DNA from: Candidatus Zixiibacteriota bacterium
Lineage (GTDB): Bacteria > Zixibacteria > MSB-5A5 > GN15 > JACZUZ01
Assembly (NCBI GenBank): GCA_024280835.1
Contig: JAJRPJ010000002.1
Location: 1-64,000 of the forward strand
Direction of reading: 5' to 3'
DNA length: 64,000 nt
The notes below the pieces were generated by a model, which did no database searches, was not told the DNA's origin, and worked only from the letters and a program-made list of their open reading frames with translations. Made by a program: the position numbers and the translations under genes. Position 1 is the stretch's first letter. The number at the start of each line of letters is the position of its first letter. Shown piece after piece: positions 3,682 through 55,543 of the stretch.

Positions 3682-4638
3682 ATGATTACTCCCATAGATT
3701 TCTCTGGCAAAAAGGTCCTCATAACTGGCGCCGCTGGCTTCGTCGGCTCAAATCTCATGCGCGCCGTCTACGACGCAGGGGGAGAGATAACCGCTCTCGA
3801 TGACCTCTTCACAGGCGACCTAAAAAACATCGACAATGACATCAAATATAAATTCATCGAAGGTAGTGTCACCGATGCCGAACTTGTCACAAAACTAGTC
3901 AAGGACGCCGACTATGTCGCTCATCTCGCCGCACGCAACATCATCGTCTCCACCAAGAACCCCCGCGACGACTACGCCAGCAATATCGGCGGCACACTCA
4001 ACATCCTCATGGCCGCACGCGAAGCCCAAAACGTCAAAATCGTCTACACATCCTCAGCCTCAGTCTATGGCAACCCCATGCACCTACCAATTTCCGAAAA
4101 CGAAACCCCACTAACTTTCTCGCCCTACTCAGTCTCAAAACTAGCTGGCGAAAACTACTGCACCGCGTTCTACGAAACCTATGGCGTCCACGTTTCAGCC
4201 GTGCGCTATTCAAATGTCTATGGAATCAAACAGGACCCGTCGAATCCCTATTGCGGAGTAGTCTCAAAATTCATTGAAGCCATCGCCAACGACAAAGTCA
4301 TCAGCGTCCACGGCGACGGCCAGCAAACCCGAGACTTCACCTACGTCACCGACACAGTCGAAGCCACTTTAATCGCGCTACTGTCACCTCGCTCTGACGG
4401 CATGGTCTTCAATGTCGGCTCAGGCTTCGAAGTCTCAGTGTTAAAACTAGCCGACGAAATCGGCAAAGCCTTCGGCAAAGAACCCAGGATCGAACACATC
4501 GACCGCCGAGACATCGACAACATCCGCCGCCGAGTCCTAAACATCGAAAAAATCCGCTCCCGCCTAAGATGGCAACCAAGAACCACCCTACGCCAAGGCA
4601 TCCAACGCACAGTAGAATGGTGGCGCTCCACCCGCTAA
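3682..4638 (+). CDS. NAD-dependent epimerase/dehydratase (UDP-glucose 4-epimerase family)
   Basis: 318 residues, full length for the extended short-chain dehydrogenase family. Rossmann motif GAAGFVG at residues 16-22. The catalytic YxxxK is YSVSK (Y149, K153), preceded by the Ser-rich strand YTSSASVYG. The end (RLRWQPRTTLRQGIQRTVEWW) is typical of the group. It likely interconverts or dehydrates an NDP-sugar for the glycosyltransferases upstream. It sits 49 bases after the GT2 gene on the same strand, probably one operon. Whether it acts on UDP-Glc/Gal or another NDP-sugar is undecided. Confidence 0.92.
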   Translation: MITPIDFSGKKVLITGAAGFVGSNLMRAVYDAGGEITALDDLFTGDLKNIDNDIKYKFIEGSVTDAELVTKLVKDADYVAHLAARNIIVSTKNPRDDYASNIGGTLNILMAAREAQNVKIVYTSSASVYGNPMHLPISENETPLTFSPYSVSKLAGENYCTAFYETYGVHVSAVRYSNVYGIKQDPSNPYCGVVSKFIEAIANDKVISVHGDGQQTRDFTYVTDTVEATLIALLSPRSDGMVFNVGSGFEVSVLKLADEIGKAFGKEPRIEHIDRRDIDNIRRRVLNIEKIRSRLRWQPRTTLRQGIQRTVEWWRSTR

Positions 4639-53048: not shown

Positions 53049-53450
53049 ATGATAAGAATTTTGGGTAATATCATTTGGTTTATATTTGGTGGTTTTGTAA
53101 TGGGCCTGTCTTGGTGGTTCTTCGGATTACTTTGCTATCTTTCGATAGTTGGTATTCCGTGGGGGAAAGCCTGTTTTACTATTGGGACTTTTGCATTTTT
53201 CCCATTTGGTCAAACCAGTGTTGAGCGCGAAATAATTACTGGACATAATGACATTGGGACTGGTGGTTTGGGAGCGCTGGGCAACGTTATTTGGTTTGTT
53301 TGCGCAGGAATCTGGCTCGGGATTGGGCATTTGATTTCGGCCTTATCCTGCTTTGTGACGATTATTGGAATACCCTTTGGACTGCAACATTTGAAACTAG
53401 CGAAACTTGCAGTGGCTCCGATAGGGAAGACTTTGGTTCCGATTGGGTGA
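53049..53450 (+). CDS. yccF: YccF domain membrane protein
   Basis: 133 residues with two repeats of the YccF module: ILGNIIWFIFGGFVMGLSWW with IVGIPWGKACFTIGTFAFFPFG, and ALGNVIWFVCAGIWLGIGHL with IIGIPFGLQHLKLAKLAVAPIG. A polytopic inner-membrane protein of unknown function, found widely. GGAAGGAG lies 9 bases before ATG. Ends 17 bases from the convergent reverse transcriptase gene. Confidence 0.95.
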   Translation: MIRILGNIIWFIFGGFVMGLSWWFFGLLCYLSIVGIPWGKACFTIGTFAFFPFGQTSVEREIITGHNDIGTGGLGALGNVIWFVCAGIWLGIGHLISALSCFVTIIGIPFGLQHLKLAKLAVAPIGKTLVPIG

Positions 53451-53467: not shown

Positions 53468-54844
53468 TCACCAGCATAGATCACCCTTAAGCTGGGGATT
53501 GCGTTTGGTTGTAGAGGTTTTCTTAGAAAGGGGGTAAATCTGATTTCGCTTGTCAGCATATGTAGATGGAACCCCTAGGGCAGCTCCCCTTTGAATTGGC
53601 GTAGCAGCTCTGTAGATTATTCCAGAGAATTCGGCGAAGAATTTGGAAAACTCTTCAGCAATTTTATGGTCGACTTCTATCATTTTCTCCTTGCTATTAC
53701 AGAAATTGTAGTACTTACCCCATGAAATTACACCTAGGCAAATGCGGTTAAGTTCTGCAAAAGAGTTTGAAGTATTCTCAAAATGTGACGTGGATTTTCT
53801 TGAATAGCGAAGTATTCCATCGAGAGACTGCTTAGTACGAACTACAAGTTTACTGCAAGAGTCATTTGAAGGGAGTACTCTTTCGGCATTTATCCGACAA
53901 CCTAAGTAATCGAATGCTTTTGCAGTTGTACCGCAAGATGATTTGCTTCTATCTTCTTTCTTGAGAGGGTGGTATAGCTCCATACCCAAACGGTCAAGGT
54001 GCTTAACTGCCAATCTGTAGGTAGCCCAGACATCTTGCTTTGTTTTTCCCAATATTAACAAATCGTCAATGTATCGTAGGCATTTGACATGCTCACTATT
54101 CATTTCGATGTCGAAGTTAGAAAGAAGTAAATTGCCGAAAAGTGGTGAAAGACATATTCCTTGTGCAGCTCCAATGTTACTTCCGGGCTGGGGGAATAGT
54201 TTAGAATCCTTGCCCATTTTACTAAGGTTTTCAAATTCTACAGTTGTTGCCTCTCTAAGCAGGTCAATAAACTGTTTGTCGTTCAACTTTCGACTTAGCT
54301 TGGTGAGGACTTTGTCTCGGGGGATTTTCGTAAAGAATTTCTTTATGTCAGTTCGGATATAGTAGTTGTGTCCTGAGTTCATTAAAAGGCACGCGGTTTT
54401 TATTGCTGTTCTAACACCATATTGAGGGTCTGTCGAATGACTGCTCGTCTTGCCCTTTTGGGAGGTGTTTTCTGAGAGCCCGCCAAAACTGTATTTATTC
54501 TCGATGGTACTCTTAATGAGTTTTTCTTTTTGTAAAATATCAAGGATTGCTCGTTGAACAATTCTGTCCTTGATGCACGGGACAGTTAGTGGACGTACAC
54601 TCTTCCCAGGGCTCTGGATTTTTACAGCTCGGTATTTGGAAAACTTGTAAGACTTGTTCCGTAGCTGTTTCTGTATTTTGCGAACGACCTGATCCACAGT
54701 GATATGGAATTGTTCAGCTTCAGAAACTATTGCCTGCGAGTCTGAATTGCGGCAACTTTTCTGTACGCGTAACCATGCGGATTTAATTGAGTTTTGCAAG
54801 CTCAATTTGTGAATTAGATTTGATCTGTGAATGGAATTGCCCAC
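53468..54844 (-). CDS. Stand-alone reverse transcriptase (possible defence-associated type)
   Basis: 458 residues from GTG 54844; a TAG lies just upstream in frame. RT palm and fingers: RPLTVPCIKDRIVQRAILDI, YYIRTDIKKFFTKIPRDKVL (first catalytic Asp), IGAAQGICLSPLFGNLLL (~residue 228) and CLRYIDDLLIL with the YxDD box as YIDD (~258). A thumb-like helical end follows (LGVISWGKYYNFC, then a basic tail). No maturase HNH domain, no retron VTG or NAxxH, and no group II intron RNA were seen. It resembles single-gene RTs of unknown-group/DRT type. Two 161-bp structured repeats precede it. Confidence 0.88.
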   Translation of the reverse strand: MGNSIHRSNLIHKLSLQNSIKSAWLRVQKSCRNSDSQAIVSEAEQFHITVDQVVRKIQKQLRNKSYKFSKYRAVKIQSPGKSVRPLTVPCIKDRIVQRAILDILQKEKLIKSTIENKYSFGGLSENTSQKGKTSSHSTDPQYGVRTAIKTACLLMNSGHNYYIRTDIKKFFTKIPRDKVLTKLSRKLNDKQFIDLLREATTVEFENLSKMGKDSKLFPQPGSNIGAAQGICLSPLFGNLLLSNFDIEMNSEHVKCLRYIDDLLILGKTKQDVWATYRLAVKHLDRLGMELYHPLKKEDRSKSSCGTTAKAFDYLGCRINAERVLPSNDSCSKLVVRTKQSLDGILRYSRKSTSHFENTSNSFAELNRICLGVISWGKYYNFCNSKEKMIEVDHKIAEEFSKFFAEFSGIIYRAATPIQRGAALGVPSTYADKRNQIYPLSKKTSTTKRNPQLKGDLCW

Positions 54845-54867
54845 CGGCTAACGCCAACCTCTCATCA

Positions 54868-55028
54868 CGGTCTTGCCTCTGTGCAGTCGACTCAGAGTCT
54901 TTGATTCCCGCTTTCGCGTTTCTCGAAAGTACATTATCGAACTGCGCCCCAACGCAAATGTATACGCTGAAAGCTTCTCCGCTGTCCCCGAAACTCTCCA
55001 AAATCGGAGTCGCAGGCGTCAGAGACAC
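54868..55028 (-). repeat. 161-bp direct repeat, copy 1 (candidate structured RNA, RT-proximal)
   Basis: Ends 24 bases before the RT start codon on the RT strand. 155 of 161 bases match copy 2; differences are at 54955, 54960-54962, 54999 and 55006. Hairpins seen: CTCTG...CAGAG, CTTTCG...CGAAAG, and CTCC...GGAG at 54996-55009. A minus-strand frame runs through it, but all six differences from copy 2 change residues, so a coding role is unlikely. Confidence 0.9.
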
Positions 55029-55244
55029 TTGGATGACTGCTACAATTACTAATAGAAGCAATCTACCTACACATACGGTAAGTTTTTGCCGCAATAAGTC
55101 AAGAAGAATTTCACGGCGTCAAAATATGACATGTACGTTCCTCTCTTTTCCGTCCGCGGCATTCCCGAGCCATCCTCTTGAATAAATCCTGTGGCCGCCA
55201 GGTGGCACGTGAAGTGTAGTGATACGGCCAAATCGAGATTTCCT

Positions 55245-55405
55245 CGGTCTTGCCTCTGTGCAGTCGACTCAGAGTCTTTGATTCCCGCTTTCGCGTTTCT
55301 CGAAAGTACATTATCGAACTGCGCCCCAACGAAAATTACTACGCTGAAAGCTTCTCCGCTGTCCCCGAAACTCTCGAAAATCCGAGTCGCAGGCGTCAGA
55401 GACAC
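55245..55405 (-). repeat. 161-bp direct repeat, copy 2 (candidate structured RNA, RT-distal)
   Basis: Same length and orientation as copy 1, separated from it by 216 bases of unrelated sequence. The third hairpin here reads CTCG...CGAG (55373-55386), a compensatory swap of the closing pair relative to copy 1. Upstream, 55406-55543 contains nothing recognised. Confidence 0.9.
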
Positions 55406-55543
55406 AGGGCTATGGAAAAGATGCATTTACTCTTGAGTTGTGTCAAGTACATATCGTAGTTTTAAGAAGAATGTGATATGGCAAACGCCATAGCGATTTG
55501 TGCCATGGCTCAAAATAGAACAAAACATACTTTGCTAATCTTC

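Follow-up and report, generated by a model that had tools for sequence, protein, structure and literature searches.

The window analysed here is a stretch of 64,000 nucleotides from a contig of Candidatus Zixiibacteriota bacterium. On its minus strand lies a reverse transcriptase (RT) gene preceded by two copies of a 161-bp repeat (Table 1). The preliminary description of this DNA had reported an intact RT with a YIDD box and a GTG start, and two repeat copies 216 bp apart that match at 155 of 161 positions, all of which was confirmed. We refer to the RT-distal copy as R1, to the RT-proximal copy as R2 and to the 216 nt between them as the spacer. The copies are in direct orientation and 96% identical (six mismatches), R2 ends 23 nt ahead of the GTG codon, and the unit made of one repeat and the spacer is 377 nt long.

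Table 1. Features of the RT locus, listed from the RT gene towards the distal promoter.
Feature	Position in window	Strand	Remarks
G2L4-type reverse transcriptase	53468..54844	-	458 aa, YIDD active site, GTG start
Tail	54839..54863	-	R2 to RT start; site of relatives' conserved hairpin (alpha-prime)
R2	54868..55028	-	RT-proximal 161-bp repeat; mid-section of permuted gene
Hairpin counterpart in R2	54996-55010	-	ACUCC..GGAG
Permuted gene, N-terminal part	55029..55061	-	Hydrophobic LLLLVIVAVIQ, enters R2
Likely start codon of permuted gene	55061-55059	-	TTG, behind AGGTAG
Stop codon of permuted gene	55069-55067	-	
Permuted gene, C-terminal part	55067..55244	-	R1 into spacer, ends ..CGKNLPYV*, overlaps P2
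P2, σ70-like promoter	55075..55102	-	Inside spacer, TTGACT-16-TACCGT
R1	55245..55405	-	RT-distal 161-bp repeat
Hairpin in R1	55373..55387	-	ACUCG..CGAG; compensatory double change relative to R2
P1, σ70-like promoter	55418..55446	-	Before R1, TTGACA-17-CATCTT

The closest solved structure to the window RT is that of the G2L4 (group II intron-like 4) RT (9d5x/9d4s), with an E value of 8e-57 for the single sequence; a profile of the family matched 9d5x with 3e-132. In a tree of 57 RTs, the enzyme falls inside a 50-member G2L4 clade (support 100/96) that is separate from the RTs of group II introns. By sequence, the window RT is a member of this clade, an affiliation missed by the preliminary description, which had left the placement of the enzyme to phylogeny. 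The YIDD box is found in 42 of the 50 members, the others having FIDD, YMDD, YVDD, YLDD or FMDD. The RT3a insertion with FP..GxAQG aligns in the window RT, and the RR pair of 9d5x (the plug arginines) is not kept (LSKMGKDSKLFP). An additional stretch (ENTSQKGKTSSHSTDPQY) behind SFGG and an extension at the C-terminus distinguish the window RT from its relatives, which lack both. Four G2L4 relatives with FIDD (L047, L052, L055 and L060) have a C-terminal extension of ca. 160 aa.

A group II intron identity was considered and rejected: the window RT scored 148 bits against the maturase model TIGR04416 (cut-off 300), and no group II intron RNA was matched in the window by Rfam, which retrieved three tRNAs and nothing else. 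The RT was also below the cut-offs for Drt2 of NCBIfam (40 bits, cut-off 390) and for Drt3a, and it scored 37.5 bits with the Drt2 model of PADLOC versus 140.7 bits with the generic RT model. The earlier view that a retron is not supported was borne out by the absence of the VTG and NAxxH motifs and by a score of 40 bits with retron_St85_RT (cut-off 235).

A genome of the same genus that lacks the RT (G001, locus L023) allows the limits of the locus to be seen. Homology to the window breaks off in the YccF gene (window position 53440) and restarts at 55543, with unrelated DNA between these limits in G001; the RT locus is therefore an insert among conserved housekeeping genes. The corresponding YccF-YbjQ site of G001 contains different small ORFs and palindromic GTAGGTCGGGTT..AACCCGACCTAC repeats. 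RT homologues are present in two genomes of the same class. No constant partner gene was found among the neighbours of ten loci. In Acetobacter (L085), Pseudomonas aeruginosa (L019) and Acinetobacter soli (L087), genes near the RT code, among others, for recombinases/invertases, a TIR-domain protein, DarT and a DNA damage-inducible protein, a hint of a mobile or defence-related setting.

The 161-bp element occurs exactly twice in the genome (20 contigs), both times at the RT locus. A search of 59 related genomes with the 161-bp region returned a single 27-bp match that is chance-like, and the sequence is also absent from the RT loci of relatives; it is private to this genome. The six R1/R2 differences are C/G, G/C, T/G, A/T, C/A and G/T. 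Two of them compensate each other within a single hairpin, with CUCC/GGAG in one copy and CUCG/CGAG in the other; the remaining four cluster in a single apical loop. As these differences show no adenine bias, a template repeat/variable repeat (TR/VR) reading of the kind known from diversity-generating retroelements was rejected. The several hairpins that had been proposed for the element are weakly supported by single-sequence folding, which is unremarkable (z = -1.8 and -1.3); the compensatory pair, together with covariation in relatives (see below), argues for structure.

The sample of relatives consisted of 50 genome loci and 2 viral loci, 3 genomes of the same class and plasmid records, and the layout was counted in those 45 G2L4 loci whose upstream sequence extends over 760 nt or more. 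Twin direct repeats of 103-161 bp are present upstream of the RT in 34 of the 45, in Pseudomonadota, Zixiibacteriota, Bipolaricaulota, Acidobacteriota and Thermodesulfobacteriota. The expectation that the element would recur beside RT homologues elsewhere thus held for the layout and failed for the 161-bp sequence itself. Within a locus, R1 and R2 are 87-100% identical; the repeats of different clades are mostly unalignable, which points to concerted evolution. The start-to-start distance is 328-397 bp in most loci and 425-485 bp in three Pseudomonas loci; the longer spacing in this subgroup (L038, L057 and L037) is due to a 103-bp spacer stretch that is tandemly duplicated (copies 67-80% alike). 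In loci with a sound prediction of the RT start, 20-89 nt separate it from the end of R2. Locus L034, whose RT is closely related to the crystallised G2L4 RT (782 bits over 410 residues), carries a 141-bp pair that is 100% identical, and a P. aeruginosa G2L4 locus on a complete plasmid (L019) has a 137-bp pair.

No twin repeats were found at four group II RT loci (L079, L080, L081 and L083) or at the RT loci L021 and L022. Random windows from the same loci gave 13 hits, 12 of which were true R pairs (from loci whose RT is not at position 4001), leaving one unrelated repeat in ca. 394 windows. At least nine more loci (L030, L035, L036, L041, L043, L048, L061, L070 and L073, the last two from Ancylobacter) have a single R in the order P1-R-tail-RT. 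They may represent assembly collapse of an exact repeat (the L048 assembly has NN within R) or natural deletion of the R-spacer unit. As judged from these sequences, the twin repeats are a rule of the family with locus-specific sequences and not a peculiarity of the window genome.

R together with the segment behind R1 forms a covarying RNA fold in relatives. In six alphaproteobacterial and acidobacterial loci, R1 and the next 100 nt share a fold of 61 pairs, 21 of which have changed on both sides; none of 500 shuffles matched this number, and structures slid along the alignment reached 5-10. The segments following R1 and R2 pair better within than between loci (0 of 2000 permutations, relatedness uncorrected); the long-range alpha/alpha-prime pairing was not significant in the window alone. 

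Two σ70-like promoter signals, P1 before R1 and P2 inside the spacer, accompany the repeats. Taken in the window alone, neither is significant (p = 0.10 for P1 and 0.11 for P2). In the family, the -10 box of P1 ends 5-15 nt ahead of R1 in 19 of 34 loci (12 nt in the window), so that the repeat starts about where the RNA starts, and P2 in the spacer is supported with a Fisher p value of 4e-8. The identical scan of R1 and of R2 plus tail, which served as controls, gave null results.

Inspection of reading frames around the repeats showed that each locus has one frame that is open from the 3' half of the spacer (past P2) into R2 and that also leaves R1 open into the 5' half of the spacer. When spacer, R and spacer are joined, the two parts become one ORF. 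As a criterion, we required at least 15 codons before R, an open R and at least 33 codons after it. Such a junction ORF is open in 33 of 34 loci versus 8.6 expected from dinucleotide resampling, and in 23 versus 6.2 expected among 24 representatives; the maximum in 20,000 simulation runs was 20 loci, and the reverse strand gave 13 of 34. The only failing locus is L045, because the 5' edge of its R1 has diverged. Past R1, at least 15 further codons are open in 33/33 loci, past R2 in 12/33 only; in L019 and L077, R2 has a TGA at a sense codon of R1. N-terminal parts often contain ATGCAAAAACGTGCC and MQKRA, with a hydrophobic stretch next: a 17-residue hydropathy above 1.6 was reached by 26/33 junction frames and by 2/66 other frames (p = 2e-13). 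In the window, the junction product has 123 aa, in which the hydrophobic segment is followed by R and the C-terminus CGKNLPYV, and no contiguous genomic ORF encodes it. Sorted by remainder on division by three, the G2L4 unit lengths are distributed 8/12/14; since units are not multiples of three, the frame is not continued from unit to unit in the way known from neo of DRT2. The pattern of junction frames points to a small membrane-protein gene stored in circularly permuted form and complete only on joined (R-spacer)n DNA.

The main soft spot of this reading is the weak constraint at the codon level. The dN/dS ratio is 0.43-0.98 in most diverged pairs, codon periodicity is not clear in plain nucleotide alignments, and the bias towards indels in multiples of three is modest (14/27 versus 23/87 in controls). 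A possible reason for the weak constraint is that these bases have to encode RNA structure and a promoter as well. Assignment of the start codon is uncertain for several loci, and Pfam gave no match for four junction proteins. Two other readings of the frames were rejected. KNLPYV* of the window is not a leader peptide like KNVP of relatives, for which it had been taken, but the C-terminus of the permuted ORF, which overlaps P2. Nor is R, as it stands in the genome, a conventional protein-coding repeat, given that codon periodicity is not clear and that the frame past R2 is usually cut. 

Most proteobacterial loci (e.g., L042, L046 and L034) have in their spacers a conserved TGCAAAAACGTGCCA that is read in two frames, as a short ORF led by a Shine-Dalgarno sequence (..CKNVP..) and, in the frame one back, as the permuted gene's MQKRA. 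Some loci lack the second ATG, and a frameshift at AAA AAC or coupled starts may play a part. PLSDB annotates a 65-aa hypothetical protein (WP_124169534.1) over R2 of the P. aeruginosa locus (L019, 5738-5932); it probably represents the N-terminal half of the permuted gene, with the reading continued through R2.

Twin repeats also accompany RTs of Acinetobacter plasmids that have a YADD box and lie outside the G2L4 clade (L020, L084, L086 and L087). The L020 enzyme adjoins the clade on a long branch, and those of L086 and L087 are ca. 62% alike. At L020, L086 and L087 the repeats are 126-135 bp long and 97-100% identical, and the units of 399, 378 and 387 nt are all divisible by three. Each unit has one frame that is stop-free throughout, in DNA of 36-46% G+C; resampling produced stop-free units in 148, 19 and 1 of 20,000 cases, respectively. 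No repeat pair was found at the related RT loci L085 and L088. The stop-free units match the never-ending ORF of DRT2 neo, and their sequences make the Acinetobacter loci a candidate for a separate neo-like system.

The layout, the permuted ORF, the two promoter signals and the covariation in relatives are features of the sequences themselves; from them we infer RNA binding, strand transfer, second-strand synthesis, expression, RT-dependent assembly and a role in defence, as follows. A transcript from P1 would begin at the 5' edge of R1 and span R1, the spacer and R2 towards the RT, which would bind the conserved fold of R and the segment behind R1. Copying of R2, the spacer and R1 would proceed up to the 5' end of the RNA, and the cDNA end, being complementary to R1, could then re-anneal to R2 of the same or another RNA. 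An R1 near the 5' end of the RNA and an R2 just before the tail are the arrangement needed for such a transfer. Continued copying would yield (R-spacer)n cDNA. Once it is double-stranded, P2 in every spacer would drive one uninterrupted gene, with the hydrophobic N-terminus from the 3' half of the spacer, then R, then the C-terminus from the 5' half. The small membrane protein would be the effector, probably growth-arresting and acting against phage or in stress, by analogy with Neo of DRT2. The G2L4 RT of P. aeruginosa (9d4s, 9d5x) has been described as a protein-only MMEJ repair enzyme (PMC12337344). G2L4 RT forms a dimer and reportedly prefers annealing of strands and synthesis primed by microhomology, activities that would suit the strand-transfer step. 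We put the probability that the window holds a G2L4 RT with an R1-spacer-R2 unit storing a permuted gene, assembled through concatemeric cDNA, at roughly 0.6. The duplicated partner RNA proposed in the preliminary description stands insofar as a structured, duplicated element lies directly upstream of the RT; a better interpretation of the two copies than a duplicated scaffold RNA is that they are terminal repeats, bounding a unit (R-spacer-R) in which a permuted gene is stored.

Recombination at the level of DNA is the serious rival among the alternatives. Homologous exchange or single-strand annealing between R1 and R2 could excise an R-spacer circle with the complete gene, possibly promoted by the RT at breaks, and the locus would then be a damage-triggered switch without RNA templating. 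The permuted ORF indeed requires only a single R2-to-R1 junction and has a stop codon, strand annealing and MMEJ are reportedly favoured by the G2L4 RT, and single-R loci resemble the expected deletion product P1-R-tail-RT, although they may be collapsed short-read assemblies, as at L048. A switch of this kind has no need for an R1 edge at the P1 transcription start, yet the two often coincide, nor for a covarying RNA fold in R, and the excised circle would be unable to replicate; we consider it unlikely. To a purely non-coding role we give rather less credence. R would then be a duplicated structured RNA bound by the RT, serving as a scaffold, as a template for short cDNA or as a 5'-UTR regulator (R1 cDNA acting on R2 in the RT mRNA), and the open frame would be a by-product of structure or composition. 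Strong covariation, weak codon-level constraint and the better pairing of post-R1 and post-R2 segments within loci (0/2000) all fit such a role. By-product frames would hardly be open in 33/34 loci versus 8.6 expected, from R1 into the spacer but not from R2 into the tail, or have a frame-specific hydrophobic N-terminus, and the stop-free 3n units of two AT-rich Acinetobacter lineages also speak against this role.

That the locus is an ordinary tandem duplication of a small gene, with gene conversion keeping the copies alike and two proteins made without any assembly, appears highly improbable. Conversion does occur between nearby direct repeats, short ORFs cross both R1 and R2 (e.g., 55067-55426), and the 65-aa protein listed by PLSDB lies over R2. 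However, upstream of R1 only the promoter signals are conserved, with 54-63% identity in diverged pairs, so the R1 copy would have no conserved start; the frame running out of R2 is usually cut, and plain duplications would not be expected to persist in this form over five phyla.

G2L4 RTs have so far been presented as domesticated repair enzymes acting as bare proteins. The conserved R-spacer-R unit with its permuted gene suggests that they work within a larger system, together with an RNA and probably an effector. In the G2L4 papers examined, upstream repeats, an ncRNA or a linked gene are not mentioned, and a search of the literature covered here for the proposed gene assembly found nothing. 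We would give even odds to the wider proposal that G2L4 RTs and their sister YADD RTs rebuild a permuted membrane-protein gene from RNA by strand transfer between long terminal repeats, that the neo principle thus evolved a second time or has its older root in these enzymes, and that their end-joining and annealing activities reflect this rather than, or besides, repair. If so, gene assembly by reverse transcription would extend beyond DRT2, and bacteria would assemble genes with retrovirus-like terminal repeats. Twin repeats with an open junction frame provide a search rule for more such systems, and the natural role of G2L4 RTs becomes directly testable.

With the P. aeruginosa G2L4 RT, the window enzyme shares the RT family, YIDD and the lack of D and En domains, its RT3a insertion aligning without the RR pair, and the upstream layout is common to the window, L034 and L019. 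Diversity-generating retroelements likewise have, close to an RT, a pair of nearly identical repeats measuring 100-150 bp (TR/VR), but at the window locus the differences are not adenine-specific, there is no C-type lectin target and the RT is not of their type. In retroviruses, the direct repeat R stands at the 5' end of the RNA, recurs near its 3' end and serves strand transfer. Similarly, R1 of G2L4 loci often begins at the start site of the promoter and R2 recurs downstream; unlike in retroviruses, the host is bacterial, an integrase and LTRs are missing, the RT gene follows downstream of both repeats and strand transfer is our interpretation. In DRT2, a promoter and an ORF permuted in an ncRNA become a working gene once the RT makes tandem cDNA, template jumping being guided by three-nucleotide (ACA) matches (PMC12039810, PMC11100668). 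G2L4 loci differ in the RT lineage (not UG2/DRT2), in a unit of 328-485 nt versus ca. 120 nt, and in that joining would use terminal repeats of 103-161 bp instead of ACA matches. Their P2 is intact within one unit, the ORF and not the promoter being split, the gene sits on the ncRNA strand, and their ORF is closed by a stop codon, in contrast to the endless one of neo (the window unit of 377 nt is not a multiple of three). The comparison with DRT2 made in the preliminary description was nevertheless a good lead. Both systems have an RT with an adjacent structured RNA and a permuted template, and in both a promoter and a hydrophobic ORF would become functional only after template units are joined, as proposed here for G2L4. 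Judged by sequence, the window locus fails as DRT2 on RT family and unit length, and resembles it in that joining of the units yields a single ORF which the genome does not contain in one piece.
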